A DNA stretch of 64,000 bases from Enchytraeus crypticus. Its lineage: Eukaryota; Annelida; Clitellata; Enchytraeida; Enchytraeidae. The notes below the pieces were generated by a model. It worked only from the letters and a program-made list of their open reading frames with translations, was not told where the DNA came from and made no database searches. Both the position numbers and the translations under genes were made by a program. The stretch covers positions 260,001 through 324,000 of the forward strand of contig CAJHZI010000355.1 of the NCBI GenBank assembly GCA_905160935.1, written 5' to 3'. Numbering within the stretch: the stretch's first letter is position 1; each line of letters opens with the position of its first letter. Below are positions 7,271-44,500 of the stretch, piece after piece.

Positions 7271-7443
7271 CGCTGGAAGATGAGCTGGGAGAGAAAGCGC
7301 GAGAGTTGTCTAGACTGGAGGTGAGGTGTAGGTACATGGAGAAGGAGAAAGTGGAACTGAGTGAACGGGTTGAGGTGCTAACTGAGGAGAAACTGCTGCT
7401 GGAGAAGCTCATCAAAGAGCTGCAGCTGGATAGAGATAAAGTG
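7271..7443 (+). CDS. Coiled-coil protein, third visible exon
   Basis: The acceptor is gtgtcag. The first two bases complete TCG, then reading gives ALEDELGEKARELSRLEVRC and VEVLTEEKLLLEKLIKELQL, ending DRDKV at gtaaga in phase 0. A classic Leu-heptad coiled coil. The last about 33 bp of this exon together with its donor is the founder unit of the tandem array that fills the next 470 bp. The exon begins only about 130 bp after the RTE-like LINE. Confidence 0.8.
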
Positions 7444-7880
7444 GTAAGAGTTTACTAGCTGAGGATTGTTAAATTAATCCAATCAAAGAGATGCAGCTGA
7501 ATAGAGATAAAGTGGTTTAAAGAGTTTAATAGCTGAGGATTGTTAAATTAATCTAATCAAAGAGATGCGACTAGGTAGAGATAAAGTGGTTTAAAGAGCT
7601 TACTAGCTGAGGATTGTTAAATTAATCTAATCAAAGAGATGCAGCTGGATAGAGATAAAGTGGTAAGAGTTACTAGCTGAGGATTGTTAATTTAATCTAC
7701 TCAAAGAGATGCGACCAGGTAGAGATGAAGTGATAAGAGCTTACTAGCTGAGGATTTTTAATTTAATCTACTCAAAGAGATGCGACTAGATAGAGATCAA
7801 GTGGTAAGAGCTTACTAGCTGAGGATTGTTAAATTAATCTAATCAAAGAGATGCAGCTAGGTGGAGATAAAGTGGTAAGA
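7411..7880 (+). repeat. Exon-derived tandem array, about 72-bp unit, about 7 copies
   Basis: The unit runs atcaaagagctgcagctgga .. gataaagtg|gtaaga .. actagctgaggattgttaaa .. aatcta. The first copy is the real 3' end of the exon plus its donor. Further copies start near 7483, 7557, 7631, 7701, 7772 and 7843. Several keep an intact aaagtg|gtaaga donor, two have gtttaa instead, and one has gataag. Decayed copies continue at 8388-8520 beyond the 10-bp array, so the block is an expanded exon-intron junction. Confidence 0.9.
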
Positions 7881-8378
7881 ACTTACATGTACTTACATGT
7901 ACTTACATGTACTTACATGTACTTACATGAACTTACATGAACTTACATGTACTTACATGTACTTACATGAACTTACATGTACTTACATGTACTTACATGT
8001 ACTTACATGTACTTACATGATGTACTTACATGTACTTACATGTACTTACATGTACTTACATGTACTTACATGTACTTACATGAACTTACATGAACTTACA
8101 TGTACTTGCATGTACTTACATGAACTTACATGTACTTACATGTACTTACATGTACTTACATGTACTTTGTACTTACATGTACTTACATGAACTTACATGT
8201 ACTTACATGAACTTACATGAACTTACATGTACTTACATGTACTTACATGTACTTACATGAACTTACATGTACTTACATGTACTTACATGTACTTACATGT
8301 ACTTACATGTACTTACATGAACTTACATGTACTTACATGTACTTACATGAACTTACATGAACTTACATGTACTTGCAG
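7879..8378. repeat. 10-bp minisatellite acttacatgt/a, about 50 copies
   Basis: Nearly pure array of acttacatgt with acttacatga variants and a few 3-5 bp slips. It grew out of the aacttacatg sequence in the last unit of the exon-derived array and splits that array in two. The complement of each unit holds acatgtaagt, a consensus-like donor on the antisense strand. Open frames across it (LTCTYM repeats) are artefacts. Confidence 0.97.
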
Positions 8379-8387
8379 GTCGTTAAA

Positions 8388-8520
8388 TAAAACTGATCAA
8401 AGATCTGTTGCTAAATAGAGACAAAGTTGTAAGAGCTTAAGTACTAGCTGTTGATTGTAAATAAACTCAGTAAAGAGATGCAGCTAGTTAGTAGTTAGAG
8501 GCAAAGTGGTAAGAGCAGAA
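8388..8520 (+). repeat. Decayed exon-junction repeat copies
   Basis: Two degenerate copies of the 72-bp junction unit (gatcaaagatctgttgctaa, gagacaaagttgtaagagct, gtaaagagatgcagctagtt, caaagtggtaagagc). They show that the 10-bp array lies inside the older array. Confidence 0.75.
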
Positions 8521-8799
8521 GATAACGTTATATCGTGTAACCTACATCAAATATATAATCTGACTGACTCTTTAGAAAAGAATGCCCATTTCTGATATTA
8601 TTGCGTGTAATAAATATATTTTGTGACTGATGGAAAGATTTAATGTTTTCAGTAAAGAATCAAATTAGTTTACATTAATTAAATATTTAATTTCATTTAC
8701 CTTGGCAACAGACTGGTTTTCTAAGTAGGAGGCCTAGTCTCCTACTCCCAGCCAAGTCAACCGCCTCCACTATATTCATGAAAATGAAATAAAATAACA

Positions 8800-8935
8800 T
8801 AACAACAATTAGAGTGTTACTGTCGTCCATTCAATATCGAGCACTATTGAGAAAGTCCAGCGAAGAGAAGGTCCAGAACGGTGAAAATTTCAAAATTCAT
8901 TAAAAAAGATAAAAGTAAATAACCCAGATCAATCG
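8800..8935 (-). mobile_element. CR1-like LINE 3' end fragment
   Basis: Shares acaacaattagagtg, atcgagcactattgaga and aggtccag with 19978-20075, which adjoins a CR1-like ORF2 tail at 20114-20452. Only the untranslated 3' end is present, antisense to the host gene and about 90 bp before its last exon. Confidence 0.65.
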
Positions 8936-9022
8936 TTAAGGGATCCATAAAATAATATAGTTTATAATGTATCAATCATTTAGATGCTAATCTTGTCTTT
9001 ACATCCTTTCACGTTGATACAG

Positions 9023-9313
9023 GACCTGGTCAAGATCAACACGATCTCTTTAGAGAGAGGCGGGGGTGGGCGGGACGTGAGCGGGGCTAGTAGAGAGGGG
9101 GCCGGTGACCCAGGAGAGGGGGAGGAGTCAGAGATCAGGGTGAGTTCAGTGAACACGACGTATCAGGACAGCAGAGAGTTCCTACAGACACTGCTCAGTC
9201 CTCGCTCTCAACGCAAGGGTCCCACAGCTTCAGGCAGTCTCGCCTCTCTGACTGACTCTGACGGGGACGGGTCGCCTAGGCGCTCTGTCGTCCCTGCGTC
9301 AGGGCAGCGGTAA
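9023..9313 (+). CDS. Coiled-coil protein, last exon and C-terminus
   Basis: The acceptor gttgatacag joins in phase 0: DLVKINTISLERGGGGRDVS, then a Gly/Ser/Glu-rich low-complexity region, a short NTTYQDSREFLQTLLSPR motif, and a Ser/Asp/Arg-rich end (GSLASLTDSDGDGSPRR) before TAA at 9311-9313. The coiled coil thus gives way to a disordered tail with likely phosphosites. GC content is clearly higher than in the introns. A candidate polyadenylation signal AATAAA lies at 9824-9829, giving a 3' UTR of about 0.5 kb that contains a SINE. Confidence 0.8.
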   Translation, partial: DLVKINTISLERGGGGRDVSGASREGAGDPGEGEESEIRVSSVNTTYQDSREFLQTLLSPRSQRKGPTASGSLASLTDSDGDGSPRRSVVPASGQR

Positions 9314-9475
9314 CACCCTGAGGTGCCTGATAACAGAGGACACGGGTTCTGTGTCGTGCCCTATCACAAGTCATAGGTTACACCCTGGGTGTATGGATAC
9401 AGGTAGCCTAGGTATTCTATCGTTCATACTGCAGGTCATTAGTAGCACTCTGAGTGCCTGGTTACAGGTTTAACA
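9270..9475 (+). repeat. Degenerate 60-70 bp repeats spanning the stop codon
   Basis: Three diverged units share gcctagg..ttct..tcgt, then gt(a/t)acaccctg, g(a/t)gcctg and atacagg (around 9275-9340, 9345-9400, 9400-9465). A fourth partial unit (ttacaccctggagtccctgg) follows the inserted SINE at about 9628. The first unit contains the last codons and the TAA. Similarity is moderate, so exact edges are uncertain. Confidence 0.55.
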
Positions 9476-9490
9476 ACTCTCTGGTCCGTT

Positions 9491-9630
9491 CTGGCTGCAA
9501 CCAGTGGCGATGTCGGTAAGGTACTCGACCGCAGATCAGTATGTACGGGGTTCAAATCCTGGGCTGACCCGTCACTGACATCGCTTTCGAGTGAGGAAAC
9601 TGACGTTCACATTAACTTTTTTTTTACTTT
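9491..9630 (+). mobile_element. tRNA-derived SINE, family A, near full length, in the 3' UTR
   Basis: Head ccagtggcgatgtcggtaag, B-box-like gggttcaaatcctgggctg, then cactgacatcgctttcgagt and gaggaaactgacgttcacat, ending in a T-rich stretch. It lies between the coiled-coil stop codon and the candidate AATAAA, inside the degenerate stop-codon repeats. Confidence 0.85.
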
Positions 9631-9823
9631 TACACCCTGGAGTCCCTGGTGATGGATCGTCGAGATACTCTGTATTTCTCAGCATGATTTACCTCTAGCT
9701 CACATTAGTGTGCCCCAACAGATCATTTGTGTACTCTGTGGACCTATCGCTATTGAATTGCAGTACATGTGTATCAGAACATTCTTAGTAATGGTCTTTT
9801 AAATACCATTAACTACAACTATT

Positions 9824-9829
9824 AATAAA
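9824..9829 (+). terminator. Candidate polyadenylation signal of the coiled-coil gene
   Basis: AATAAA about 510 bp after the TAA on the plus strand, the first clear hexamer downstream. No GT-rich element is obvious, so this is tentative. Confidence 0.35.
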
Positions 9830-11457: not shown

Positions 11458-11464
11458 AAATTTT

Positions 11465-12641: not shown

Positions 12642-12679
12642 AAAGTAAGTAAAGGCTTCATAAGATAACTAATGGTTAC

Positions 12680-13556: not shown

Positions 13557-13560
<4 letters not shown>

Positions 13561-21800: not shown

Positions 21801-21818
21801 ATGGATGACTTTACGCAA
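21801..21818 (+). CDS. ANLN: Anillin exon 1, 18-nt coding start
   Basis: ATG GAT GAC TTT ACG CAA (MDDFTQ), then donor gtaatt. Joined in phase 0 to [10 protein letters not shown] it parallels human MDPFTEKLLERTRARR, which is why this far-upstream ATG is chosen over any ATG near exon 2. The intron is 918 nt. Confidence 0.85.
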
Positions 21819-24800
21819 GTAATTTATTCATATTTTACTCTATCGTTACCATATTTTAATTACCGAATGGGATGTCATCATTAATGACCGTACTTTTGCT
21901 TAACCACATGTCTTTTGAAGATTGTTTTGGATGAATTGATCTTCTGTGATGCTTGCTGTGGGGACGTCCCCTGGTGGAATGGGTATCGAATAGTCAGCAT
22001 TGCTTGCAGATACGTATAACTGGTTCTTTCTGAACCACCACAACAATCCTTTTCAGGGCCAAAATAGAAATAAAATATAATATAATTTTTATTTAAAGTA
22101 TATTAAAAAATGAGGGGTTGCTCTGCTGAAACTTGCTTAACAGGCCAATCTATGTATTAAAATGGATGAAAATTGGCCAACCTATCAAAAATTGGTCCTT
22201 TAGTAATTGTTAAAAGTTTGATGTGAAAATATTAAAAATAGCCTGAGATGTTTAAACTTTTGCAGGTGTTATCAGTTTTTTTACTCTCCTATTCTACTTG
22301 CAAAATTTTCTTCAAAAACAAAAGACAACTAAATTTGATCACTTCTTTTGCATTGATCATATGCCAGCAACAAAAGTTATTCCTATGTCTTCTCTGTTTA
22401 TCATATTCTATGATACCGTTCTAACAGAATTTCTCAGGAACCACCCATGCCCGCTGGTGGCGTTAACTTCCCCATGGAGGAGATATTGTCCACTTTTAAG
22501 AATCACTTATCTCTACTTGATTTATGGTTAATGCTTTGCAAAAATCTAGTATCATAAATCTCTATGATACTAGATTTTGCAGCGCATTAACCGTAAATCA
22601 AGTAGAGATATATGTTTCTTAAAAGTGGACAATATATCCTCGTTGATACTTTGTGGTTTATAATTCTTAATGATACTTTTATACTTAGTTCTCAACTATG
22701 ATATCTAATAAAAATCTCATATCATGTGTCGCTCAGAACCTGTTGGAAAGAGCTCGACAGCGCAGGGATGACCTCGCTAAGAAGATGGCTGACGTACAGC
22801 GGAAGAGATCAGTGGAGGATGAGGTGACAACAGGTGGAGTGAGTGTGAAACATCTCTCCACCAGTGATGGTATGCTCTTGTCAGTCACACATACAGTCTA
22901 GATCTCTCTACCAGTGATGATATGCTCTTGTCAGTCACACATACAGTTTAGATCTCTCTACCAGTGATGATATGCTCTTGTCAGTCACACATACAGTTTA
23001 GATCTCTCTACCAGTGATGGTATGCTCTTGTCAGTCACACATACAGTTTAGATCTCTCTACCAGTGATGGTATGCTCTTGTCAGTCACACATGCGATTTA
23101 TTAACCTTCATATATTTTCACAATGTTGGTTATATAATACGAGCTCTAAATTTTTATGGGTGATATTGGCCGAGCCATCTTTGCTGCCATATGATTAGTT
23201 GACAGAGCTCATATTGTGGGATAAACTGGGTATTATTGTACTTGTAGATAGTTGTAAGAGTGTGAATAAACTTCAATAAAGTTCTGAGACGGACAGCATA
23301 ACCTTCATTATCTACTTTTCTATTAGGTCCCACTGATATTTTGAAGTATACTCTTAAAGACTAGATTGCTGTTGAATGTAGATTCACCGAAGCGCAAGTG
23401 TCTTCAGGAGAGCAACAGAGACATGACCGACATGAAAACAGAGAGTAAACCACTGGAGGAAAGAAACTACGATGATTGTATGTACACTGTAATCGTTTTT
23501 GTTTTGATTTTTCTCACTCATAACGTTGTAATGTTCTTTTTAAATACGGTCCTACTATTTCATCCAGTAATGGTTTAGCTGTCAAATTGTGGCTTCCCAT
23601 TTAGTATCATTTTGATACGCACAAAGTATATGCTTGAATAATTGGATTCTATAGTCCGTGTGTGACTGACACATTCTGCTTTCGCTTTCTTTAAAGAGCA
23701 CTCCATCATGTATTAGTTCATCTTTATCATCTTCCCCTAAATCTCAGTCCAACCAGGGTCGTGATACGAATAGATGATTTATCCATTCGTTTAAGTTTTG
23801 TGGCAATTACTAGAGCCTAGGCGCTCACCAACCGAATGCCCTTTCTGACGTAATGAGTAAATATCAAGTAATGAGTTAATGTTTCATGTAATGAGTTAAT
23901 GTTTCATGTAATGAGTTAATGTTTCATGTAATGAGTTAATGTTTCATGTAATGAGTTAATGTTTCATGTAATGAGTTAATGTTTCAAGTAATGAGTTAAT
24001 GTTTCATGTAATGAGTTAATATCTTCTCAAAATTCTAAGCCTTAATGTATCTTATGGCTTGGAAAAATATGCCTTCTGTGGTAGTTTTCTTTTGCCTTCC
24101 TCAGTAATTGCTCGGTCTCCTCTTGCGACACATGCAGTTTGCGGTTGGTTTATCTTCCGCAATCCAGCCACAACATTGATTATAATACAAATGTCTATTT
24201 ACAACTCACACAAGTACCGCCGGTTATAATTTGAAAAGTAAAAATTATGCTGTTCATGGAAGTTAATTCATGCCCAACATAATTTCTAAATTTTCCTACT
24301 TTGTTGCTGAAATTACTTCATGATCTCTCTAGGAAATTCATATTATGTTGTCTTTTAAACTAAATTGACACATAAGATAAATAACATCGAAAACGTTATA
24401 TGCTTCTGATAAATATTAGTCAACTTTAAAAATATTTGATCATGACCTTGTAAGGGCCAAAAACTAAGCTTACCTTTATTTTTCTGTGTAATAAATGCTG
24501 CCAAGTGATAAGTCGATGTTAACTTGAAAGCAATATCAATGACAGGCGAACCCAGGATTTGAACCCTGCACATACTGCTCCTCAGTCGGACATCTTACCA
24601 ACATCGCCACTGACTTCAGCTGGAAAGCATATCAGTGACATTTTGTGTCTTCTCTCTGGAAACCAAGTCAGTGACGAGGCATGCACTGGCTTTGCTCTAC
24701 TTATGTTATGTTATGTTCTACAAGTTATGCTCTACAGAAATGTTATGCTCTACAGAAATGCTGACAGCTCATGCCAACTCGTTTTCTCAGTTCTTATAGT

Positions 24801-27800
24801 TCCATATCTTTTATTCTAATTACTTTGTCTAACGCCTTGTTGCATATCTGTGTATTTTGTACAGTTGACTCAGAGAACCGCTCTGCTTCTAAGCCGAGCG
24901 GCTCAGGCGGCTATAGACAGAGGATGGCAGCTCTAGCTCAGAAGTTCAGCAGCTTTGAAGATGATCTCAGTCATGCCAAGATGTACGTATGGTTCGAGCA
25001 TCTTGAGAATATCATAGCATTAACAAGTTATCAAGTACATCTTTAATTTCAGTAAGGTATTAATTAGGCGTACTCAATTTGTAGAGTTCTATATTATTTA
25101 TACTGCGTTATTTTCTTGCGATATCAATGGCATTCTATTTACGCAGAGCTGAATACGATACACCACAGAGCAGTAAGAAAGCGCGAGCTCCTCAACCACC
25201 TCTGGACACCCCACCTGTCTACCCGGTCACCACCAGCCTGGTGGTGGGACCTCCTAAACCTCCCCGCTGTGCAGACACTGACAGTACAACAGCATCAGTG
25301 GCGGCACAGGAGAGTGGTAACACTGGCGAAAACGCTAAACAAATGTCACACGTGAGCTCTGTCACTCTGATTGTGGGTGGAGCTAAGTCAGCCTCCTCTG
25401 TCAGGAACATGTCAGTGGATAGAGGGTTGGGAGAAGAGATGGCTTCGAAAGAATTAACCACACCCTCTGCTCAACAGCAGAAAAGTGGAGAAAGCAGAGG
25501 CAGGGCGGGCTATACTCCTGCCTCTGTGGTGTCCTACAGTGGTGGTAAGTATCTGTGCACCTACCTCCTGGGATTTTTCAGAGAAATATGGAAATTAGAA
25601 ATGGCTAAAGAGTTATACATATTTGTGTTCTGGTCACTAAGTCACTAAAGTGAACAATAAAATGGTCTGTGCCTTGATTTCTGTGTACTAGATCAATAGG
25701 ATATCTAATTTTATTTATAGTATTCTTGCTCATCATTATGGTCTGTTGGATACATCTTCTTTTCTTTAGAGTTTTGTGAGCATTTCTTTGTGTTAAGATG
25801 GATTGTGGCTTGGCTACTTAAAATTGCCACTAATCGATTAATATACATAGATCTGTGATAATGCTCAACTCTTGACATCTGAATGAATTGATTGACGTAC
25901 ACAGATCTCTGATACTATAATGCTCAACTTTTGACGTCTGCATGAATTGATTTACTTGCATAGATCTGTGATATTATAATGCTCAACTATTGACCTTCTG
26001 ATTATTACAATTATGTCATTGACAGTGTTATACACACATACACAATTCGATAATTAATTTGTAGCTTCTGAGCCCAAATAGGTGTCAAAAAAAGTCAATG
26101 TGCAGATAAATCTGAACTACCATGAACTGTTTTACTGATCTCTCAAGAAAGGAGGTTTATGTATAAATGTAGACTTAACTATTGAAATAAGTGTTAGCCT
26201 CGGCTTCAACAGTTTGGCTTCTTTCACTTGGTTATGCAGTTTTTCCATCACAGAGGCAGACAATCTGCTGCAAAACTGATGCTTCATTTTATTTATCTTC
26301 ATATAAAAATATTTCAGTAAAGTTTAATGTAATATTTAGTGTTTACTGGCTCGAGACATTTCAGTGATGATTGAACCTGAATTACTGATTTTTATATATT
26401 TTTAATATCTTATTTATCAAATGCTGAGGAAAGTTTCAGAGTGACTTATATCTAAAATCTTGGGGCATTGAGACTTCTTGTTGGGCTAAATACAAAAATC
26501 TTGAGGAATTGTTAAAGATCAATTAATATTCGATTATGGTGTTCTTGCTATTGTATCAGTAGCAGGCATATTTTATCACTCTAACACGGCTTCAAACGTT
26601 CGTTTTCTTAACTCAGGATCCTCATACTTTGTGGAGTTTTGCGTGACGTATCTTACATTAAATACATCAATGGGCTTTGTAATTAAAGCGCCTATAATAA
26701 GTGTCAATACAAAATGGAAATGTAAACCTTGGGTTGACAATGCTTTATTATATTTTTACAACCTCTAGGAGTGGCACAGTTGAAGCACAGTGCTGCCACT
26801 AGGGGTGGTTTTGATCCTAACGAGAGTATAATGGAGCCTACAAAGCAGCCGGTATCGGCACGTCTGGCAGCCTGGCAACAGAAAACAACGGCCGATGAGA
26901 CACCGGTGCAGTCACGTGTCAGGGACATAGAGCGCAAGACTGCGTCAGCCAGCACGTTCAGGATCAAGGCTGCTGGCACTCCTAGGATGGCTCTGCCTGG
27001 TGGCGCAGAGAATAAAAGCACTCCTCTGAGCAGCGGGATGAAGACGTCGCCTATTAACAAAGCTGCGCCTTATTCCAGCGGGATGAGGACCTCACCGATG
27101 TATTCCGGCTCATCATTGAAGAAGGCTTCTCCAGGTAAGTCAGTGAAGCCTGCGACCCAGTCGCTGCAGCAGCGGCTGCTGGAGCAGGTGGGTAAGTCTG
27201 TGACGGAGGTGGGGGAGGGAGAGAGAAGAGCGAGGGCAGAGGAGTTGGCGAGGCTGGAGAGGAGGTGGAGGGAGGAAGGAGGGGGTCTGGAGGCAGCGGA
27301 GGAGAGTGCCGATGAGAGGAGTGAGAGGTTCAGGGCTGATCATCTGAGACTCAGAGCTGAGGCGTCGAGCAACAGCAGCAACAAGGCTAGGGTAAGTGTT
27401 GAGTTGTGTGTGTGTAGTAACAAGGCTAGGGTAAGAGTTGTGTGTGTAGTAACAAGACTAGGGTACTAGGGAAAGAGTTTTGTGTGTAGTAACAAGGGTA
27501 GGGTAAGAGTTGTGTGTGTAGTAACAAGACTAGGGTAAGTGTTGAGTTGTGTGTGTGTAGTAACAAGACTAGGGTAAGTGTTGAGTTGTGTGTGTGTAGT
27601 AACAAGACTAGGGTAAGTGTTGTGTGTGTAGTAACAAGACTAGGCTTTAAGTTTATGAGAGAGAGAGAGAGAGAGATATGGGTGTTGTTAGGGGAAGAGT
27701 GCACTGTTAAATGCTAGTGCTAGCAACAACAGGAAGTATCTCAGCTGTGTCCAATTTACTGTGCAAATAGTAAACTCATTGTAATACCCAGTCCCAGTGC

Positions 27801-30800
27801 AGTGTGGTAGCTCATTTCAACTGATTTTTTAGTTATTTACTTCAGTTCTGCTTGTGTGAGAAAAACTTGCCAACTGTGGGTACGAGGAAAAGCATCTAAC
27901 TCTTCCTAACTGTGCTAATTAGAAATGTGGAGGCCCACAGAAATCCACTGTCTCCAGTTGTTGCAACTGTTGCAGAAGTAATAAAAGTACCAGCAGCATC
28001 TGTCGATGTTTGTCAGTATCAGTTGCACTATAGTGATGTACGTGTTTGCAATAGAATTTAAGTTTTCCTACAAACAGTGCTGTCATGGACAGTGAAATAT
28101 TATATGTGCTAAAAGTCGTTATGAATTATCTTTAGTTTAACTCCTGCAAGGATCTCTGTAATACTTGTCAGCTAATTCTTCCTGCCGGTACCATGGCAAA
28201 GAAATTTTGAATTTTCATTGTCGCTAACAAAGAGAGCATACACAATTATTCATAAATTTGCACATTATTTTTCTGAGAATCAAATTCAGGGATGCATTTT
28301 TGTTACTTTCTTAGATGTAGCACTGGTTGTTGAGGTAGTGCAGAGAGGTCGGATAGGTGTGGTTATTAATCATCATTATCATCGTGATCTTCCCTTGAAT
28401 CCCAGTTTATGTAGGGTCGGGATTACAAAATCACTTTAATGCAGTCCTCTATTATTATATATTATGTTATATTATTCACTATTATTATTCTACTCTATTG
28501 TTTTCAGCGTCGTTCATCGAGTGTTCCCCCCCGCGCTCCACCGCCCCCTGCAGTGCTGCCCTCTAGTGGTGGCCTCACAGCTGCTCAACGAGGCAGCGTC
28601 AGGGACGTGAGGGCAGCTGATGATGCCTCTGTGCAACAGAGAAGTGGCAAGAAAGAGCAGGCGCGCGAAAAAGCAAGGGCTGGTATGTTGAGTTAATTGT
28701 ATACTTACTGAATATCAAAAGTAATACTAATTCATTTGTGTCAGTATTTACTTAGCTTACCTTAAGCTGCTGATCACTCACGCGTCTGATGAGGGTTAAA
28801 TTACTGATCAGAAGTTTTGGTATTTACGATAGTGCATGGTTACTGCCTACAAGGCCACCAAAAATAATAAAATAAATGAAACTTGAATTTTACCTCTTAA
28901 TCTATGGTTTAACTAATCCACGATGTAACCCTCAGAAAAGAGAGATGCAGCTGCGCATCACTTTAGATCACGATTCAAGCTTAAGGTTACCAAATTGTGA
29001 CTACTTGGTAGTTTACTCCACATTACGCTAGTATATATGGTCATTAGTTATATTCACATTGGAATGGTGGAAAACATTTGAAGCTGTTTGGATGCTGTGT
29101 TTTAGGTAAGCTGACACTTTGGTGTGATCAGAGTTCGTGTTGGAGATCGTTTGTTACATTAAAAATTGACTTGTTTGTACTTATTTTTTTGTCTGAAGAT
29201 TGCCTTTTTGTGTGTTCTGCATTCTGATGATTCTGAACTAAGATGTTGCTCAATAGCGTAATGTGGGTATTCGAGCTACACTGGATGTAGTCAAATTATA
29301 TGATCCAAACAACGAAAATGCTGCAAATCACTAGACAATTGGGTATATTAGAGTCTGCTTTCACACTCCGTATACAGGCCATGCCTCATCCACATCATAA
29401 TGTAGCCTATAGCTTGGGAATAATATGGCTTTTGAGGTAATTTCCAATTGCCTTCTTCAAGTGCAAATATATTGATATTTGCTGTTATTGTTGCTGCTGC
29501 ACAGACTTTGAGAGCAAGTTGAAGATGATGGGTTTTGACGTGAACAGCGTTGGTAGCACTGCTGAGATAGAACTAGGTAGCCCTGCTCCTGTCAAGCCTC
29601 CCACTACACCAGGGTCTACCAAACAACCAGTACTCAAGACCCTGTCTCAGCCAATCAGCATAGAGGAGAAGAGGGTCACAACGACAACTTTCTCTGATCA
29701 GGAGTCTGTAACAGTGACCAAGAAGAAGGTTGTTGGTCTGGGGTCAGTGCCTGTGGCTAACACGGGATCGATCACTCCAGCAGGTAGGAGTGGATCAGGG
29801 AGGATGGGAGCCCCTGGGGCCACGCCGGGTGGTAACAGCATCTACAACCTGATCAGGAAGCAGATGGGCTCGGCTGTGTCGGTGGCTGTGATTGCGGGGG
29901 ACTCACCCGGGGAGGTGGGGGTGGCGAGGAAGCCTGCGGTGATGGAGGACTCGTTTGACGACACGCTGTATGACAACGGGTCAGATGATGAGGAGAGAAG
30001 ACCCACAGTGACGTTCTCTCAGTCAGTTGATCAGAGGTTCATCAGTGATGTGGGAGAGTCCACCGTCGATGAGTCGCAGATTGCCATGGAGAGGTGACCT
30101 AGCGAATCTAAATTATCTTTATTTACCTTTTTCTACCTTATTTTCAATTGCTTACAAAAAATTTAGGCTTAATCTCTTCGGCATAAATAGTGTCAGATAG
30201 ATATATCTCAATAGCCCAATAATTCATTGTTTTGCGTAGCTTGGTAATGAAGTTAGCATTTCTGGGTGACCACTTTTCAGGAAAGCCTGGAAAAGTCAGG
30301 AAATTTGAAAGTGGTCAGGGAATAGTCAGAAAATATGCTTAAGGCTTGCTGAAATCTAGGAAATCATAATTTGGCCTAATTTAACTTATTCAATATAAAA
30401 ATTCTTTATAATTTTTAAGACACATGCAGTTGAAAAATTACATAGGCTATGTTGGTAATGAACAAAAAGTAACCAGAAATTAGTGGCAACACTCCAAAAC
30501 CTTCACAAGTTTTTATTGAAATGAAGTTGATAGTGTATGACGTTTAAAAATCATCTCTGGCATTGTTGTCCGACATAGATGCTGCGACGGCAATACTATT
30601 GGCGAGACATACTGAAAAAGTAAGGAAATTTGTGGTCTAGAGAGTCACCAGCCTGAAATTTGTGGATGGTGGTATTACAGACCAAATAAGGCAATTGCTG
30701 CTTTCATTAGCTGCATTCTTCATCTCCTGTTTGATGCAAACTGTTTTATCTCTAATTGTAGTGATGATGAGGATGGTGACAATGAAGATGATGATGAAGA

Positions 30801-33800
30801 TGATGATTGTGAGGAGGAAGATGATAGTGAGGAGGGCTCGACGGATGATGATGGAGGCGTGGATGACCTGATAGACGAGGCTCTGGACGATACTGTCAAG
30901 CCTGAGTCCAATCTGGACGCTGAGGTCAAGGTCGCCGATCAGACGCTTACTAGGAGCAACGCTGTGGAAGTGCCAACCGTTGAAGCTAAACCACCTCATA
31001 AGGTTTGAAATTTACTATGAGCTTTTCAGTATTCTGAAGACTAAGAAAAGCTATAACTGGTTTTTTTCTTACTGCCATAGCGTTTTGTTAAATGTTTCTT
31101 TAAAGAGAATCTGTCAGATGTACTAAGTTGATATATCCAAGTTACTGTAGAATGTAACAAACGCTTTCTGCCTGTAGTTTCGCGACACAACTAAGAAAAA
31201 ATGTAAAAACTAAACGGATACGGTGTAGGAAGCCTTATATTTTTCATGTAAAACCAAAAAGGCATTTCTTTTATGAGTGAACTATCTTGAGAAAGCTATC
31301 TTTAACTCTCTTTAAAGAGAGTTAAAGATAACACTGTTTAACGATATCTCACTTTCTCTTTCTGTCTTAATGCATTGCCTACTGGCAGTCCGTGGTATAT
31401 AGGTCCATGGACTGGTTGCACTTATTATTTAAATTTTGATCATGTTTATTTCGCTTTTGTTTTTGTCACATTGATGTACTCTTGTTCACTTATTACTCTG
31501 TGAAATTTGGTGAAAATAAAACCTATTTCTCTGTACTTTGGTTGCTAGAAGGACACTCTCTATAGATTTAAAAGATTTAAATATATATATATTATATATA
31601 TATAGATAGATTATAGATTTATAAGATTTAAAATTTGTTGTTGATATGTCAAGTTGTTGTTATTAATTCTATGAATAACTAACGGTTATTCATTTAGCTA
31701 GCACAGTTGTTAATTCTAGTTAAATACAGTAATTATAGCCATGACAACTGCTGAGATATGAAATGTTGGTGTTGATCTGATATTCAGGTGGTTATGCGTA
31801 AGAAGTCCAGCAAGAAGTTTGATGGTTATATATCTATACAGGAGTACAGACTGTCTCAACAAGTAAGAATTGTACATGTACACTTTTCCTAACCTCATAA
31901 TAGAACTTTTACTTCAGTTTGACTGTTATATATTTAATCTTAAATGCAGTTTATAGTTGTTAAAAGAATGGAAGAGATTTTGATATGGTATGGGACAAAA
32001 AGGAGTGGAGAAGGTCCATTCGTATCCCGACCCTAGTTAAACTGAAATTAAAGGAAGATGATGATGATGATGATGCAGTTTATAGTTGTTGTGTGTGTGT
32101 GTATATATATATATATGCATATATATATATATATATATATATCCCCGTGTTATGTCAGGGTTGTTTGATGAATTGACCAATCAGTGACTGCACGTGTATT
32201 ATTATTATTTTATTCAAAGTTAATACTTTAAAACTTGTCAAGAATGTCTAAGTTAAATTTCAGCAGACTATTTGTTGCATTTAGTTTAGACGCAGATATG
32301 TTTTAATTGTTTTCTAAAAGAGGTAATTGAAGGAATGGAAGGAAATAAGGTTACAACAAGATGAAACTCAGGATGCTGGATGATCTAAAGACAATTTGCA
32401 TGTTGATATAGAATAGAATAGTTAATATGTTTATTTTCTGCAAAGACACAAAATGCATATCGCGAGAAAAATTGGTCGTCAATGAAGATACAGAGTGTCT
32501 TATCTAGCTGACTACCATAATAATTATTTTACTTACAGTTCTTAATAAAGCTAATATTAGTTCATAGTTCGTAATACATACAAAATTGAACTTATAATCT
32601 ACATGTATAATCAGAGCTAAATGACTATTAAAAATAAAAAACAAAAACGGTGAAATTTGCATAACTTCTATCATACAAATTAGCAAATTCACATAACTTC
32701 GATCAAACAAATTAGCAAAACCATTCATCAAAAAGGTACACTTTATACCGCTTCGAAAACTCAGTTATAGATTTAGCATTGCGTATGTCAGGGGATTTTA
32801 GGTTCCAGTTGGTAACACAGTGAAAACACAGTGATATTAAGAGAAAAGCAGAGGATACAAACAGGTGGGGGGTTATATGCAAAGGACTTGCCAATAGGCA
32901 GTGCAATGAGAGTTTAAAGGCATATAAATTATAACAATTGACCAGATGGACCCTTGCAAGAATTCTAGCTTGCAGTAGATGCTAATCTGCTTTAATATTC
33001 TTAAAGAAGTGACTATGAGAATTGTGATGCAGCCTTTCTAGAGACTGTTAGTCATTGCAAACCCATCCAACAATCAGTTCAGTCTCTCATGCTAACTCTA
33101 CTTCACTCATGTTTAATCCCAATGCGACTGCTCTTATTTTATGATTAGGATATCTTATTTTATTTATATTTAATTTGATTAGGATATCTTATTTTATTTA
33201 TATTCTCTTTTTCATGTCAAAATCATATTTAGCTGATCGTCATAATTTGTTTGATTTAACTTGATTGGTTGATTTAGAGACAGAAGATGACACCCAGTAC
33301 TAACTACGCCAGTAGACCAGCCAGACGTGACGTTGTCAGCGCTGCACCAGTGCTCTCTGGGGCTCATGCTGCGCAGTCTGATCATGCTGCTCTCGGGTTT
33401 GTATTTCTAGCTTTGTCTGCTCTGATTTGTGATAGTGTACCTGGTACATAAAAAATACAGCAGATTAGTGTTTTTACCGGGTGCATAAAGATTATAGCAG
33501 TTTAGTGTTTTTACCAGTGCATAAAGTATATAGCATGATTTGTGTTTGTGTCTTGTAATTATGGATATTAGCAGATAATATTTGATATTTGCTCAACGTT
33601 CAAAGTGTTATGCAATCTTGGGAGACTTGAGTGTACGCAACATTTATAAATCTCAACTTCGTTGCCTTTTAGAGTGTCTAAGATCTAGTTGAGTTGTGAT
33701 CGTCTATCTGGTCAGGATTTGTGAACCTTCCTCTCTTCACATCAAACAAATATATTAACAATTGGATTATCTGCCTTGTGCTGAAATAAATATGTACACT

Positions 33801-36800
33801 TTAGTAGTGTAGAACTGCTCGCAGTTGTGTTTGAGAATGCCCCTGAGGATGAGGAAACGGATGTTGTAATCTTTATTATACTGAATTTCTGCTTTAGAGT
33901 TGCAAATTAGCTGTCTGTGTGTCTTAAAAGCAGACTAATACTATGTTACGCTTGAGCATTTATTTGATCTCGACTGATATAGATTAGCGATGTGATAAAG
34001 ACTAGCAATGTGTGTAGTGTTTCAGATAATTTATCTCTGCTGTCTTAATAGTATAACACAGGTTGTTTATGGCACAATTTTCTCTAAAATGAAGCTTCTA
34101 ATGTTATTATATCTGCATTGTAATTAAAGTTTAGGCTAATGAAGTCGATGCTGATAATATGCATATTTATATATGTATATAATAAGATTAACGTAAGAGT
34201 TTTAACTAGTCATATCTAAATAAGAGTTGAAAGCAACGAATGTTTGTGTTTAACAGATATGATAGAGGTGATGGGAGAGCTATGACCAGTGTTGTTCCAT
34301 TTGTCTCCGAGAAAACTGTTAAACAGCGCATACAGGTTTCTCTGATGCCATTTTTCATTATATTTCAAGATGTATGGCAGATTATTGATTGAAACATTAA
34401 ATGATTATCGTTGAAACATTTAAATGTAAATGGCTTACTACACTATTTAGACGCTTGTGATTAATACACTTCGATATGCAGTGGAGATATTTCTTGCAGT
34501 TTGTGATTTAAATAGTTGCTGACGATGCTTGGAGGCAGCAATGCATTTGCCTGGGTCTTATAAGTACGAAATGAGAGATTCTGAGGTGAATTGAACCCTC
34601 GTGGGTTCAAATCCCAGCTGCGCTGATCTGAAAGTAAAATCTCGGACATTCACTGGACTGGTTAGCATATACTGGAAATGTTCTAAGTTTCCTAACGGTT
34701 TAAGCTTGTGGTATTAGAAAGTCATGGATATCAATATAGCTGATCATTTCACTGTAATGCATGTTTACTTGTTTACTTTAAATTGTGTCAGGGATTCTAT
34801 CTTGATGCAATAAAATATGCTGTTGTACTATACTATATACCCGATTCTAAAATTCCTATAATATCTAGTTAAGAAATTGCCTGGCAATTATCAATTGTGC
34901 AGATGAATCTATGTGTCTATAAATGTACAAGTTATCGCCCATTCTAGCTCCTGGTAGAAATTGAGTTTACCAATTTTTTGCAGTTATCTTTATATTTTAT
35001 GAGAGAGTTAAAAGTATAGAGTTAACTACGATACCTCAGACCTTTATAACATTATAACGTCCCTGACATCATCCTTGAATGAAGAAGCGGACTTTAAACC
35101 TTTATTATTATTATTATTATTATTGTTATTAATGAATCTATGGTGTGTAGGAGTTGCAAGAGCAGGTGAATCTAAAGTTGAGTGTCATACAGCAAACGAG
35201 CAATGCATTGAATCAGTGCTGCCACGACAATTCAACGTTTGCTGGGTCTGCTGAGGCTGTCGAATGTCATAGGATACTGCTGATTGCCTGTAAGCCTTTC
35301 ATTCTCTAATATCAGTTCTTTCCCTCATACAAGGATGACATCCCTGACACTTCATACAACGATGACGTCCCTGACATCATTCTTGTATGAGGAAATGGAC
35401 GTTAAGCCTTTATTATTATATTATTATTATTTCTTATTCCTCTGCAGCATGTGACTATGAATGAGCACGGCTATACTACCTATTCCATACTTTGTATCAT
35501 TTTATTCTCATTCCATGAACTAGTTTTCTGGATTTTGGATTTACATCATTTAATGAATCTATTTAATTTTTCTATTCAGTTAGGCCTTGTCATCCTAATA
35601 CTTGATAGATGTTTACTCTCTTGAATGGCAGTAGCATTCTCATTGTCTTCTTTTTTCATTGAATGACTAAGGAGAATAATATTTATTTTACCCATTAGCA
35701 GCACATTTTTCACAACTTAGCATGATTTCACCAACTATGATTACTAAGTGACGTAACTAGAGAAGATAGTTGGGGTTTTGAATGTCACAAGGGACATTTT
35801 GCAGGTAGGTGATATGAATAAAGAAATTTGTAATTCATATTCTGATATTTGGGGAATTCTTGGTATACGATTCAGAGAATTTATCTATTCATAAATTCCC
35901 TGCAACAATCTACATAAGTGCTTAAATTTATGTACGCATTTGGTGCATTAGTTTATGTACCAAGCGAATGGTAAGCGGATGCAAAAAATTGTAAATAGTT
36001 CAACCGAAAAAATTATTACAACTCCAATGAGGCTTAGCCAAGAACAAACTTTACATTATTTTCTTACTTTGATTATCCCAGAGCTCCTTGTCTCTGTTAG
36101 GACAGAAGATAATTATATTGCTACTATCAAATTTGATGAGACGTCACGATTTTGTTTTGAAACTTATTATTGCCTACTCAATCGTTCAGTTGTGCATTAG
36201 TAGTGACAATATGCTTCGATTTTATAATTGATTTCTTGAGCTCACTTGTAACTGACATAGTTCGGGTCACTAGACTGACGCTTAAATTCAGCTTAAGCTT
36301 TTATTCAATTTTAAACATTTTTATTGGCAGCTACCATTGCGTTCTTATGTGTATTAATTAATTTCTGCTTATATTAATTGAGCTAAGGGGTATAATGCCT
36401 ACCATAAGGCTACTAGATATTTAATTTGAATTAATTTCAACATACTTTAACTGGATAGATTCATAGATAAATATAAGCTTTATTTCACTGAAGTCATAAA
36501 GCATTCATGCTAATTATCTGCAAGATCTTAGGCCTTTGATAGGTTTCTAGGTTAACTGTAGGACTGATGGGTATTTACATAGATGTTTTCAGATTCGTTC
36601 TAAAAGTTAATTGCCTGCAGGTAAGTAGTAGGAGATCTGTGATAGGTCACTGTTAGGTCACTATTGTCAGGTTATTGTGTAATTAATGTAGATGCATTCA
36701 GAGTATAAGAGACGTCCCTGACATTGCCTTATGGCGAGGAACCGGACGTTAAATTATTATTCTTATTGATTGATTGTGTTTATTGTCTGTGGGTAAGGAG

Positions 36801-39800
36801 CGTGAGGTCTATGGTAGGTCACTGTTAGGCTACTATTGTAAGACTGTGTTGATTGTCTGCAGGTAAGGAGTATGAGGTCTGTGTCACTGTTAGGCTACTA
36901 TTGTAAGACTGTGTTGATTGTCTGCAGGTAAGGAGTATGAGGTCTGTGTCACTGTTAGGCTACTATTGTAAGACTGTGTTGATTGTCTGCAGGTAAGGAG
37001 TATGAGGTCTGTGTCACTGTTAGGTTACTATTGTAAGACTGTGTTGCTTGTCTGTAGGTAAGGAGTGTGAGGTCTATGGTTTGTCACTGTTAGGCTACTA
37101 TTGTAAGACTGCGTTGATTGTCTGCAGGTAAGGAGCGTGAGGCATATTGTATGGAGCTTCAGAGGTTGAGGGAGAGAGGGGCTGCCGCCATGTGTGGACC
37201 CGCTGGTCCTCGGGGTCGTATCACTGTCAGTGATATACGTCTCCCTCTTAAACCTGACTTCGTCAACAAGATGGCCACCATTCATGGTATGTACTCTATT
37301 GTACTCAAAGTCGTCTGCGGACTGGATAAACAATAGTGACTCTGTTTTTGTTATTATTCGTATATTTTTCTTAATAAGCTAATACTCCATCAGAAATTTT
37401 GTCTTTTGCCATCATCCACTACCTTTCATGCAATTTCTTCACTCTTCAGTTTTTCCACAATTCTCTACCACCTTCCTTCAGAGGTTTCTCGAGGGAGAGA
37501 GAACAATGTTTATTGAAAGTACACATTCACATACAAACACAAGGTCATCAAAGAGGCTATGCATATCCTACCTAGTTGACAGCCAGCTATCATGCAAGAA
37601 CAAGCAAACAAACAATTGAAAATAGTGAAATACTCAAGAAAAAGCAACAGTAACAAACCAGCATGCAAGTTGGAGAAACAGATGTATCAAGGGGGACGAG
37701 TTCGTTCACTAAAATTAGAACAATTTGTATTTTATATTATAGTAGTTAAATATTTATCTTGCTCAAACCCCTCTTCGTCTTGTACATCAATGATTTTGCC
37801 TACATATGAATGAGTGCCACTGCAGATTAACTTATAAGAAATTATTGTCTATAATAAGCGAAACTTTTGGCTGGAGCCAGTGGCGATGTTGGTAAGATAC
37901 TCGACCGCGGATCTGTATGTGCGGAGTTCAAATCCTGGGCTCGCCCATCACTGACATCGCTTTTGAGTGAGGAAACTGACGTAAACATTAGCTTTTTTAT
38001 AAGATAGTATCCATAATATATTTACGATTTCAATCAGATTAATTCTCATGTTGATCTGAAAAACTTAAATAAAACTGCAAATCTTTCTTGGGTCAATAAG
38101 GGCTGATGCTGGGACAGCAGCTAAATACCACCCCCAAAACCACATAAATCTTAGTTAATACATGTATATTTCCAATGCAACATTAATGTTTTGTTGGTGA
38201 TGGCATATTCTTTGTCATGAGATCAGGTTGTTTGTGGATAGAGTTGCATATTTTTCGTGTGTAATTAGGATTACAGGCCCTTACCTACTGATCAAAAACC
38301 TACTGGTCATCAAAAAACTAATAGCTGTATGAGCCAGTGACATAATTGGTTAAGTATCTGTTAATGAATACTTACTAATTACTGGCTGGAGCCAGTGGCG
38401 ATGTCGGTAAGATATTCAAACGCGGATCAGTATGTGCGGGGTTCAAATCCTTGGCTCGCCAGTCACTGACATCGCTTTCGAGTGAGGAAAATGACGTTAA
38501 CATTAGCTTTATCAGCTTTATTTAATAGATCCATTGTCCAATGACAGGATTGGTTACTAACTGATAGCTCTCTGAGCCATTGACGTGATTGGTTAGTTAT
38601 CTGTTAATTCAAACTAATAGCTCTCTGAGCCAGAGACGCGATTGGTTAGTTATCTGTTAATTCATACTAATAGCTCTCTGAGCCAATGATATGATTGGTT
38701 AGTTATCTGTTAATTCATACTAATAGCTCTCTGAGCCAATGATATGATTGGTTAGTTATTTGTTAATTTATACTAATAGCTCTCTGAGCCAATTATATGA
38801 TTGGTTAGTTATCTGTTAATTCATACTAATCGCTCTCTGAGCCAATGATATGATTGGTTAGTTATTTGTTAATTTATACTAATAGCTCTCTGAGCCAATT
38901 ATATGATTGGTTAGTTATCTGTTAATTCATACTAATAGCTCTCTGAGCCAATGATATGATTGGTTAGTTATCTGTTAATTCATACTAATAGCTCTCTGAG
39001 CCAATGATATGATTGGATTGTTATCTGTTAATTAATGCATACATGTACTACCTAATAGCTCGATGTGTCCATTTTCAGATAACACAGTGCATTACTTCTT
39101 AGCAATGTTACGCCACGGGTCGCACATTGTTTTCACTCAGATGATATCGACCCATGATCCTGCCACTGCCAGGGCGGGTGGACGTCTAGACTTTCCTAAT
39201 CTTATCAACATTGATAACGTTGCAGGAGACAACTTCACTATAGACGTTGAGATTTATTCTATGGTATGAAGCTGTAATAGTTATATTAGTTATATAGTGG
39301 GTTAATTGTGTTGTAATTAGTTGTGGTGTTATTAGTTGTAATGTTATTGTGTTGTATACAGCTGGAATTCCCTTGCTTGTGTTCACATTTTAAAGATTGC
39401 TAGTCTGAATTTATTACATAAATTATAAACGATTTATAACAAGCAGTGAATTGTCTCTCTCCCACTGTTTTGTTAAGAATTTTTTAAATATTAAAAATAT
39501 TTATATCTAAAGCTGTGAAGAACAAAGCCCTCAACACCAAGGAGACAAGTAGCACCGTTACTATGAGTCAATTTTATAAAAACTTATGCTTAAGTGGAAG
39601 TTTCCTGTGGAGGCGAAGTACTTTGAGAATAAACAAACCAAACATTGCACATATTTGCCGGGACCAACTGATCACTAAGGCATCAGGATACTATCTCGAA
39701 AGACTTAATTTGAACTTATGGCATCTTTTTAAGAAAGCCAAACCTCTGCTTTGGCAATGTCTTGTTTAATGCTAAAGCCAAGTTTAACGACGCTTTCCTG

Positions 39801-40870
39801 CTCGAATAGTATTTCAGTGATTGGTGAGCGGTGTTATATGTATTAGGCACATTGATTGTGTTGAGATATTTGACATGCCGTTGGTTTCTGGACTTTTTAA
39901 AGGGTGTATAATTATTAAATTACATGAAATAATATTTTTTACGCCAATGATTAATGCAGCTATGATAGTTTGAAGTTATGAAGAATCAGAGAAATAAAAA
40001 TAACCAGCTCTACATTCGTTTTATTTAACGTTGTGATTGCATCACTACACAGTGAGGTGACCTTTTAACTTAGTTGTTTGAGCCAGTATTTGTTAATCTG
40101 AGACAAACTTCTTCAGATGTAACTATTGATTTTCTTCTTATGCAAATTGATGTGGTTAGATGGTATCAAAACCAGATGAGCTGACGACACCCAAGAAGAA
40201 GAAAGCGGGTTTGACACCCAAGAGACTAATGACACCGACCTCTAAGAGGAGGTTTGAGAGTCCTGGGGGTCCTGCAGCAGTGAGAACAACCAACTTTGTC
40301 TTCATTGCTTCTCTCCAGCTCAACAAATCACATCTACTCAAGACCCACTTCTCTCTTGAACGGGTCTGTAACAGCCATGTTTCTGGATAAGAAAATTAAC
40401 TGCTATAATCTATCATTTTGTGAAAAGCACTTGTGATATATGCTTGTGATATCCTTGTTGGCATGTTTGTTAGCAGTTTATGAGGAAATCTTTTACGAAT
40501 TTTATTTATTTCACCTACATGCTGCCTTATGGACATCGTTGAATAATAATAATAATAATAATAATAAAGGTTTAACGTCCGTTTCCTCATACAAGAATGA
40601 TGTCAGGGATGTCCCCCCATCACATGTCACTACAAATTGATTCACCCCAAACGATCTGAAAAAACACGTGCTGAAGAGAAATGAAAGATCCTAAATAGTG
40701 CCGGTCCGGTGATCAAAAAAACAGTCAGGCAAGATGAAAAAAATCTATGGTGGGAAGAGATGTGTTTTCAAATATGTATATGGTTAATGTATATAATGTA
40801 TATGGTTAATATTAGTCAAGTGCTATGTTATTTGTATTTAAGTTTTTTCAATTTGAGTGCTCAATGTATG

Positions 40871-40906
<36 letters not shown>

Positions 40907-41493
40907 TAGATTTACCCGTTTGCAAAAATGCACACATCTAGGATAAATGGGCACTTTTACCTGAACATGGATTTGAATCCGAGCCTCTAAGGCTTACGTT
41001 GAAACATTGTACGACTCTCAAGAAATTTATAGATAAAATATCTTATATAAAAAAGAAAATATCTTATATAAAAAAGAGAATATCTTATATAAAAAAGAAA
41101 ATATCTTATATAAAAAAGTTGTTTTAATTAGAAATTTTAAATATGACGATGTGATGAAATTTATATTTGCTAGAAATTTACAGAATACAAATGATAGAGC
41201 TATAATTTGCATTAATATTTTTGATTTATAAATATGACCTGTCGTTTTAGTTATATATATGCCAGCCATAAATTTAGAATCGTCAAATGAGCTGTAATTA
41301 GCATAACTATTAAGGAATTTCTCCAGCGGGCTAGCGTCGACAGCATTTTGCCGCTAAACGTTACTTCAGACAGACAGAATGGCTCACTATATTAAATATA
41401 AAAATGTCTAAAATCTAAAGAACATAAAACAATATCCAACCTCAATCATTTTATGCTCACTAGACTTGCTGTAAGCTGCAGGTTATCTAAAAC

Positions 41494-41549
<56 letters not shown>

Positions 41550-44500
41550 ATGAGAGAGAGAGAGAGAGAGGCCTAATGGTCGGTCCATAGTATATAACGC
41601 CTCCACTCTTCTCTGTCTTCTGCTTTCCTCTTCATGTCCATATATGAGTGGCTCTTTAAATTATCTAACACTCCTAATATCAGCCTGCCTGTGGTAGAGT
41701 TAACTGTTGGTATCGTATAATGGTATCATTATAACTCTGTTTGCTGCAGGTTCCATTCTCGTGCCCACTGCAAGGTTCTATTCACCTGAGGCTCAAGTGT
41801 CTAATGGAGACGTGCATAGAAGAGAGAGGCTTCCTGGTGAGTTACTGCCACTCTGTCTAACTGATCCATGGTCCTTTTAGCTTTTAATTAGTCTAGCAGC
41901 AAAACTGCAATCAAGAGGCTGCCATATAATGTAAATAATACTATACTATATCTAAAGAACGTAAAATAATATCCCGACTGATTCTTTGTGGTAGAGATCT
42001 AGTACTGGGCTACATGAGCAGGATATACTTCAATATATTTCTTTGTTTGTCTTGACTGCCATAATTAAAATGTTTATAATTGGGTTTCAACCAATAACTT
42101 TATTCTGCTACATATATTGGATTTCAAGTATTTGTTCATTGATAATCAATTTATAGGTAATTGAATAGTAATTAATAGTCCAAACAATGATATTGAATAT
42201 TTAATATTTTAACTATTGATATTTTTTTATGTTAAAATATTAATATTAGGGTTAAGAAATATAAACGTTTCTGCTCTCTCTGCCATTTTCTGTCTCACAC
42301 ATGCACATAGACTGATGTGTTTTAAAGTTTAGTTTTGAATCAAAAATTACACCCAGGTTACGTGCAGAATCTGTGGATATTAAAGGGATATTTGTTAATG
42401 TTACAGTTGAGCTAGTTATTTTATTACGCTAAATGGGCAGATACTCATGCTTTCTGTTTCGACAATATGGAACTCTCTTTAACAAGATTTTCAATCTTGT
42501 AGTTGTATTGGTAATTTCCTAGCAAGCTAAAAACCCATCTCTTTCCGCCATTGGTCTAAACTTTGACCCGCTTGCCTTGGATCTTGGATTTGCACTGTTT
42601 TGATGTCGCTTTCTCTTGTGGTCTTTGTGTACTCAGTCGTTAGCGTGTGGTGTTTTGGCGCCTGTTTATGCAGAGTCTGCAAGAGACGTCCCTGACATTG
42701 TCTTATGGTAAGGAACCGGACATTAAATTCTTATTGATTGATTTTCTGTCCTGCCTGTTAAAATATATTTCTTGAAAGATATGTAGATTATTGCCTGCGT
42801 CTATTACTAAAGAATGATTTTGTCTGTCTGCTGATTTGTTGTGTAGACGATGTTTGAGGACGTGAGTGGGTTTGGTGCTTGGCACAGGAGGTGGTGTGTC
42901 CTGAAAGATAACTCTGTGTCCTACTGGAAGTATCCTGACGAGGAGAGGGACAAGGTCATCTAAATTCTGTCTACTTCCTCTGTCTACTCCACTTCATCTG
43001 CTTCACTCTATCTACCCCATACTCCACTTCATCTGCTTCATTCTATCTACTCCATACTCCACTTCATCTGCTTTACTCTATCTACTCCATACTCTATTCA
43101 TCTGCTTTACTCTATCTACTCCACTGCATCTACTTCTTTCTGCACCTATCATTGGTCTCTGCAATGAAATCTTTTATTGTAACGGTTAAAATATATCATA
43201 TTTCATAGTCTGCTCGATGGATCTGCTACCTGACTTCTTAAAGAAACTCGCAGATTTGGAAATAAATGAATAATAAATAAACTCAAGTACCACAATCTTA
43301 CAGGTTTTTGTCACTCTATCAAAGCCTATTTATCACTGTTATATATAGGTATAGAGCCAGTAAACGTGGTTATTAGTTAAATATTATTATTATTATTATT
43401 ATTGTATCAACTTACTCATACCTGGCTACTCGAGATCTTTTGGAGTATAGGAACTGCTGAAGAAGATTGACATGTGAGTATCTTGCAGCATAACAGTTCC
43501 TGAGGTTTTACATTTCTGAAATTTTGAAAAGTGGGGACTCCTGTGATGCTCTATTGACCGATAGATTGATTGATTGATTGATTGACGTGCAGGAGCCAAT
43601 GGGTCGCATTGATTTAAAGATGTGTATAACGGATACAGTGGGTTTGATAAGCCGTGACGTGTGTGCACGACCTAACTCATTTGAGCTGTGTACAGTTCGC
43701 AAACAGTCGAGGGGCGACAGAGACACTCTAGTGACGAAACTCTGCGACACCATCACCACCACAAAGTATGTAGCAACTATCTGCTGTGCAATTTTTCTCT
43801 TATTAGCTTAGTAAGCAATGCATAATGTGATGCTTTTCGTACGAAGCCAATGACGATTGGCCATTGTATGGACACTCTGCACCTACTGACCTGCCAGTTG
43901 AAACCAAATTTATCATGCTACTAGCTTAGTCTTCTGGTAACTTTGATGTTCATTTTGTTCTATGTTAAAGTAATACTAGTGAAAGCTGTGTTAACAACCA
44001 CTGTGTCTTACTTTAATTTTGCTGTTGACAGAAGCTTTAAAATAAAAATGCACTAGAATTTTAAGCATTTCAAAACCCTTCCTTACGTGTAACATTATTT
44101 CTCTGCATTAATGAAACTGACACTCTATCTTCTTCTATACGTGTTTAACATTAATTATTTTTGCACTTGTAACCGCTTTTAAGCTAAAGCAAGCTCTAAG
44201 CTAAGCTTTATCTAATATATGACTTCGTCAACTTCATAAATTGACAAAAGTCATAGATTTCATAATGGCAGCTAAGTTCTATATTTTCCACTTAGCTTAA
44301 CTTAATATTTCACAAGCATTCTCCTGACAACAGTGTATATATTAGAAGCCGTAGCCCTTGGTCTTTTTCATAGACTACTGAACTATAATGCATCAGTAAT
44401 ACTACAGTGTATTATTCGTTTACTAGCTATTTTGTGCATTCTCGCTGTAGTTATTCTCTTGTGTGCCCTCCATGATCTACATTCTATTTGCATAATATTG

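Follow-up and report, generated by a model that had tools for sequence, protein, structure and literature searches.

Why do minisatellites in two neighbouring genes of the annelid Enchytraeus crypticus so often begin on an exon edge? The question is raised by a stretch of 64,000 nucleotides (assembly GCA_905160935.1, contig CAJHZI010000355.1, positions 260,001 to 324,000 of the forward strand; GC content 36.5%), here called the window and numbered from its first letter, in which tandem arrays lie over splice junctions of the anillin gene and of a coiled-coil gene upstream of it. An earlier interpretation of these letters, the sequence-only reading, had held that random minisatellite birth would rarely choose exon boundaries this often, and that either some process duplicates across exon-intron junctions or selection tolerates or favours extra splice sites there. 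We find that anillin junctions lie inside arrays at the same rate as those in a sample of introns from the same genome, and that the straddling arrays are probably the fringe of a heavy load of intronic minisatellites, born near-randomly and pared back by selection where they reach into exons.

Minisatellites over splice junctions in anillin and its neighbour

Tandem Repeats Finder (TRF) together with the gene models confirms that four minisatellites hold a true exon end and its splice site, at coiled-coil exon 3 and at anillin exons 2, 6 and 14, as the sequence-only reading had described. The junctions within the arrays are three donors (7443, 22869 and 27391) and one acceptor (37127/37128); on the exon side the arrays take in 33, 18, 12 and 15 nt, respectively. 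In every junction array of the window, the copy joined to the exon is the terminal one.

All features are on the plus strand unless stated otherwise. The array at coiled-coil exon 3 (7411..7886) has 6.6 copies of a 71-bp unit, the first of which contains the last 33 nt of the exon and the donor (7443|gtaaga). A 10-bp array (ACTTACATGT, 49 copies, 7881..8374) is nested in it, and degenerate 71-bp copies reappear on the far side of this nested array (~8390-8515). In anillin, a 50-bp minisatellite with 4.8 copies (22852..23092) begins 18 nt within exon 2 (22737..22869), and a 32/39-bp minisatellite with ~7 copies (27380..27646; TRF 27380-27644, in rows of 32, 39 and 72 bp) begins 12 nt within exon 6 (26769..27391). 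The 65-bp minisatellite at exon 14 (37128..37286) spans 36606..37142 and comprises 7 copies with the real one, TRF giving 5.5 copies at 36775-37142 to which an older copy at 36606 is added; the true acceptor and the first 15 nt of the exon sit in its last copy. Inner copies are 98-100% alike in the exon 14 array (three copies) and in the exon 2 array, and the exon-joined copy of exon 2 is 94-96% similar to its full-length neighbours. The low identity of the last exon 14 unit says little, because this unit continues into unique exon sequence.

Three further repeats lie at or near gene landmarks, as had also been claimed. A degenerate repeat with a spacing of ~65 bp (9270..9475) crosses the coiled-coil stop codon (9311-9313); it is absent from the TRF calls and is weak but real, with a best self-match of 18 at a lag of 65, where 300 base shuffles gave no value above 12. 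The other two are wholly intronic: a 53-bp minisatellite with 8.9 copies (38560..39033, TRF) ends 45 bp before anillin exon 15, and a 35-bp minisatellite with ~4 copies (42966..43123, TRF) starts 11 bp after exon 18.

By eye, a mobile-element-like insert or tail can be seen within the exon 14 array (~36676-36775), and similar tails occur in other introns near 35325-35430, 40570-40620 and 42685-42735.

Decoy splice sites in the arrays

The scoring matrices for splice sites were built from junctions of these genes that lie outside the arrays (19 donors, 19 acceptors). Decoys in the junction arrays frequently score level with the true site. The coiled-coil donor at 7443 scores 8.0, with equal decoys after 7662, 7803 and 7874 and another after 8508, beyond the 10-bp array. 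The exon 2 donor (8.8) has two equal decoys, GT being kept in copies 1, 4 and 5 and replaced by AT in copies 2 and 3. Three decoys equal the exon 6 donor (9.0), whose array contains decoy donors after 27430, 27502, 27534, 27573 and 27612 and decoy acceptors between 27418 and 27632. At exon 14 the true acceptor scores 10.3 and three upstream decoys score 11.5, so the choice of acceptor is not explicable by local strength alone.

Of the alternative sites tested, 14 of 15 would lead to an early stop, the exception being the exon 6 donor after 27430, which adds 39 nt in frame. Some decoys have decayed. Besides the two exon 2 copies with AT for GT, one exon 14 copy has lost its AG, and in the coiled-coil array one copy is without GT and two more have a changed context. 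To judge from the sequences, this decay is as expected without selection. The earlier suggestion that selection tolerates extra splice sites fits our observations; the companion suggestion, that they are favoured, is not supported, and the decayed decoys and the weak donor that the exon 14 array would regenerate (below) speak against it.

We also considered microexons and rejected them, as no exon 2 copy carries an acceptor-like site scoring at least 4, and all five of the 13-nt pseudo-exons tested in the exon 6 array add a stop.

Junction-spanning arrays in other introns of the genome

To place the window in context, exons of PH, myosin, kinesin and dynein genes were located in the assembly (524,188,772 bases, which include the window), and introns were taken from the last three families. 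The family searches scored 65 of 257 myosin and 122 of 210 kinesin candidates, with loci given for the best 30 hits. Myosin and kinesin exon pairs were picked by hand as neighbours within the same locus with a profile gap of at most 12. For dynein, a first pass attempted 72 introns, of which 46 were good, after which the joining rule was changed; one hit in dynein locus L083 and two in L084 were dropped as not sensibly joined. Altogether 88 of the 100 introns attempted were resolved, giving 176 junctions whose positions rest on reading frame, splice score and the spacing of profile hits, not on RNA.

The 88 introns contain 65 arrays (1.03 per kb), which make up 20% of intron length. An array encloses 16 of the 176 junctions (~9%; 8 donors and 8 acceptors), the same rate as the 3 of 38 found in anillin (Fisher P 1.0). 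The sampled rate equals that of anillin because about 20% of the sampled intron sequence is minisatellite, and the premise that random birth would rarely give such boundaries is not upheld. Within anillin itself, placing full arrays at random predicts 2.3-3.2 spanning arrays (sets of 8, 13 and 17 arrays), and three are observed. Single-unit placement, which we judge to be the better model of array birth, predicts 0.6-1.4 (P 0.02-0.16 by threshold), and for non-exonic anillin arrays of at least three copies it gives P 0.004-0.014.

In the sample, an enrichment of arrays over boundaries relative to random placement, the test that the sequence-only reading had invited, was not significant after correction for array density and interspersed repeats. 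Sliding whole arrays gives 11.4 expected spanning arrays against 16 (P 0.07), or 11.0 against 14 with paralogous loci dropped, a deduplication that removed L084 and the kinesin locus L054 (3 introns; P 0.17). With both paralogs and interspersed repeats removed from the 88 introns, 14 spanning arrays compare with 10.5 expected (P 0.14). The repeat mask covered intron sequence matching at least three other sequences of a 362-kb set, and undercounts mobile elements because of that requirement. Neither the 73 high-confidence joins (10 vs 7.0, P 0.14), nor the dynein introns alone (8 vs 6.3, P 0.29), nor, after these corrections, the introns of at most 650 bp (6 vs 5.5) depart significantly from expectation. 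With all sampled introns taken together, spanning arrays are 1.3-1.8 times as frequent as unit-length placement predicts. Among the edges of profile hits, arrays cover 8 of 100 in 50 clean loci and 0 of 16 in 8 PH loci.

Array coverage across 85 introns has no peak at the junction. It is 19-24% from 25 bp inwards and 13-14% in the outer 25 bp, falling in the exons to 5-8% over the last 20 nt and to 1-4% at 20-40 nt in; a process aimed strongly at junctions might be expected to raise coverage there.

These observations can be joined in a simple scheme. Short segments, mostly tens of bp and up to ~160 bp, would be tandemly duplicated near-randomly in genes and then expand. If such a segment by chance included an exon boundary, the splice site in the copy still attached to the exon would go on functioning, and the remaining copies would become intronic sequence with decoy sites. 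Arrays reaching far into exons would be purged by selection, leaving a straddling fringe at ~9% of junctions. The arrays, their junctions, the decoy sites and the sampled rate are observed; that birth is near-random, that the arrays are neutral and that splicing uses the exon-joined copy, we infer.

Paralogous genes and the sequences of the units

Two kinesin paralogs, L052 (C617) and L054 (C405), have a common 41-bp unit over a common acceptor, with 18.7 and 3.8 copies, respectively. The array and the exon that follows it are 90% identical between the two over 348 bp, and the upstream exons are 78-80% identical. The array may be older than the gene duplication or may have been moved by gene conversion, and the identities hint at the latter.

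The dynein paralogs L083 (C199) and L084 (C109), 83-90% identical in blocks, have differing arrays at the same acceptor: in L083 a 28-bp unit with 2.4 copies ends 7 bp before it, and in L084 a 151-bp unit with 2.7 copies spans it. Four of the spanning arrays found elsewhere in the genome, 16 in all, have GATT-rich units (L028, L070, L077 and L084), in each case over an acceptor.

A common unit or transposon was rejected as the source of the arrays. The units in the window differ in sequence, in agreement with the sequence-only reading, and the 16 spanning arrays outside it differ from one another by eye, the kinesin pair and the four GATT-rich arrays excepted.

Alternative explanations

Several counts weigh against near-random birth. 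Before correction for interspersed repeats, more arrays span junctions than expected from random placement of birth units (16 vs 8.9, P 0.009), as is also found with paralogous loci dropped (14 vs 8.4, P 0.03), for the myosin plus kinesin subset (6 vs 2.1, P 0.009) and among high-confidence arrays of at least three copies (5 vs 1.9, P 0.03). Arrays cover 13 of 136 profile-hit edges in 68 loci, a count that includes hits with stops, where unit length predicts 2.6 and full-length coverage 12.5. Array ends also gather near junctions: 32 of 65 arrays have an end within 25 bp of one (14.0 expected) before repeat correction and 30 of 62 (16.6 expected, P 1e-4) after it, an excess that comes mainly from introns longer than 650 bp (18 against 8.0). 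Among 16 anillin arrays, 7 begin over a donor or within 50 bp of one (null 1.37, P 0.0002), a threshold picked after the distances had been seen; a threshold-free test on mean log distance gives P 0.013.

The array ends, the myosin and kinesin subset and the anillin donors are what would be expected of a process that preferentially duplicates DNA at intron ends, linked for example to transcription or to splice-site sequence, and thereby seeds arrays at or just inside junctions. We regard such a process as unlikely, though it keeps a place because of the myosin and kinesin subset and of the array ends near junctions in long introns. Introns of at most 650 bp have no significant excess of arrays with an end that close (25 bp) to a junction (12 vs 8.9, P 0.13), nor, as given above, of spanning arrays; coverage has no junction peak; and the acceptor side of anillin is flat, with 2 arrays against 1.37 expected. 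The same pattern is moreover predicted if mobile elements dilute long introns, and their lengthening of the middle of such introns may explain the excess of array ends near junctions. Should duplication nevertheless be biased to intron ends through a link to transcription or splicing, for which we see a small chance, about 1 in 11 junctions would carry an array of decoy sites, which would keep alternative junctions permanently on offer, a few of these retained across gene duplication (L052/L054).

It appears improbable that the extra sites are used or favoured by selection, with recursive splicing or dual-specific sites serving to take out the exon 14 array in steps. The array looks suited to this, with AG|GTAAG kept in 6 of its 7 units and its three upstream decoy acceptors outscoring the true one, and AGGT dual-specific sites in a tandem repeat are reported to be spliced in human UBC (PMC10809524). 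Stepwise removal calls for a competent regenerated donor, however, and the exon 14 array does not supply one: exon 13 joined to a copy regenerates CCT|GTAAGG, which at 3.1 falls below all 19 reference donors (4.3-11.1), and a good donor (7.6) arises from the oldest copy only. The retention of AG|GTAAG is expected from the 92% identity of the units, and the other junction arrays carry decayed decoys.

It is more doubtful still that the arrays mark newly gained introns derived from tandem duplication of AGGT-bearing sequence. As this model predicts, GTAAGGAG opens exon 14 and GTAAGCC opens intron 13, and the gain of introns through duplication across a boundary is documented in potato (PMC4974935) and proposed for amphioxus globins (PMC3087553). 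Three of the four arrays are on the donor side only, though, and lie in introns of 0.5-1.6 kb whose remaining sequence is not derived from the unit. An assembly artefact, with collapsed or duplicated repeats set at exon edges by the assembler, is the least credible explanation, as array copies differ from one another, comparable arrays occur on many contigs, and two kinesin genes on separate contigs have the same unit and acceptor with unlike copy number.

Gene models and other features of the window

The anillin gene (21801..45461) has 20 coding exons and 19 introns. Its spliced open reading frame of 3936 nt runs without an internal stop and encodes 1311 aa, with Pfam matches to Anillin (PF08174, 1.2e-27) and PH (PF00169, 1.3e-14); Anillin_N stays under the cut-off. 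A phmmer search matches human anillin 4xh3 (E 4.7e-98, query residues 1-388), and the join of exons 13 and 14 falls inside the alignment. Exons 2, 6 and 14 are placed by the open spliced frame, and exon 14 by this alignment as well. The model holds some weak splice sites, such as the donors of exon 4 (gtacgt) and exon 18 (gtcatc).

The gene upstream encodes a coiled-coil protein of 270 aa with a weak match to DUF4686. Its exon 3 donor and exon 4 are joined in frame; the start of exon 3 is accurate to a few bases, since the join of exons 2 and 3 is not fixed. Minus-strand open reading frames resembling long interspersed nuclear elements (LINEs) occur in and around this gene at 507-1274, 4236-5101 and 6017-7224; they look reverse-transcriptase-like, and we take them to be LINE remains. 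Window positions 5997-6416 are 94% identical to a stretch of the dynein locus L084.

A repeat resembling a short interspersed nuclear element, and tRNA-derived in appearance, was seen by eye at ~9500, 37870 and 38390 and on the minus strand at ~2640 and 24545, in introns and intergenic sequence. A long inverted repeat, also seen by eye, lies in anillin intron 1 (~22475-22640).

Comparison with known systems

The window arrays resemble the amphioxus 'mirages' in structure and, as we read them, in working; those are described as minisatellite-like tandem duplications over an exon-intron boundary in Adh3 and the globins BflGb6 and BflGb9 (PMC3087553) and in the TnC and PGBD5 genes (PMC3902484). 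Both sets duplicate the boundary in tandem, at a donor or an acceptor. Amphioxus units are given as 10-160 bp, with many but not all copies carrying AG/GT signals, and the window arrays are alike in this respect. Splicing in amphioxus appears normal from reverse transcription-polymerase chain reaction (PMC3087553), whereas here it is presumed, and the spliced model keeps the reading frame. In contrast to the amphioxus cases, one gene here has three such arrays and its neighbour one, and their rate at junctions has been measured. In the reports cited here, mirages were described one gene at a time; here a frequency is obtained in a sample from one genome. Among the papers listed by our literature searches there was neither a genome-wide count of mirages nor a report under that name outside lancelets, and we consider a mirage common to two kinesin genes, together with the measured junction frequency, to be new.

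Such arrays lend themselves well to two questions: how the spliceosome settles on a single site where tandem copies are of equal strength, and whether the duplications supply material from which introns could readily be gained. They also carry a warning, in that coincidences of repeats with exon edges call for a null that takes repeat density into account.

Other known arrays share parts of this arrangement. The minisatellite of human IFI6 (6-16) has a unit of 12 bp. It is reported to lie over an exon end and to supply multiple splice donors (PMC4526556), its copies containing donor sites, as do those of the window. Downstream copies are used as donors in IFI6, whereas the downstream donors tested here lead to early stops, that after 27430 excepted. 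In genes of human segmental duplications, minisatellites with units of ~30 bp at exon-intron boundaries are described as varying between paralogs and often changing the transcripts (PMC2812944); in the window, the terminal copy keeps the protein frame. Finally, the dual-specific sites of human UBC (PMC10809524) and the ratchet points of Drosophila (PMC8605326), where recursive splicing is described, resemble the exon 14 array in their tandem juxtaposition of AG|GT. They differ from it in that the donor regenerated at exon 14 is weak, and stepwise use of this array is hypothetical.

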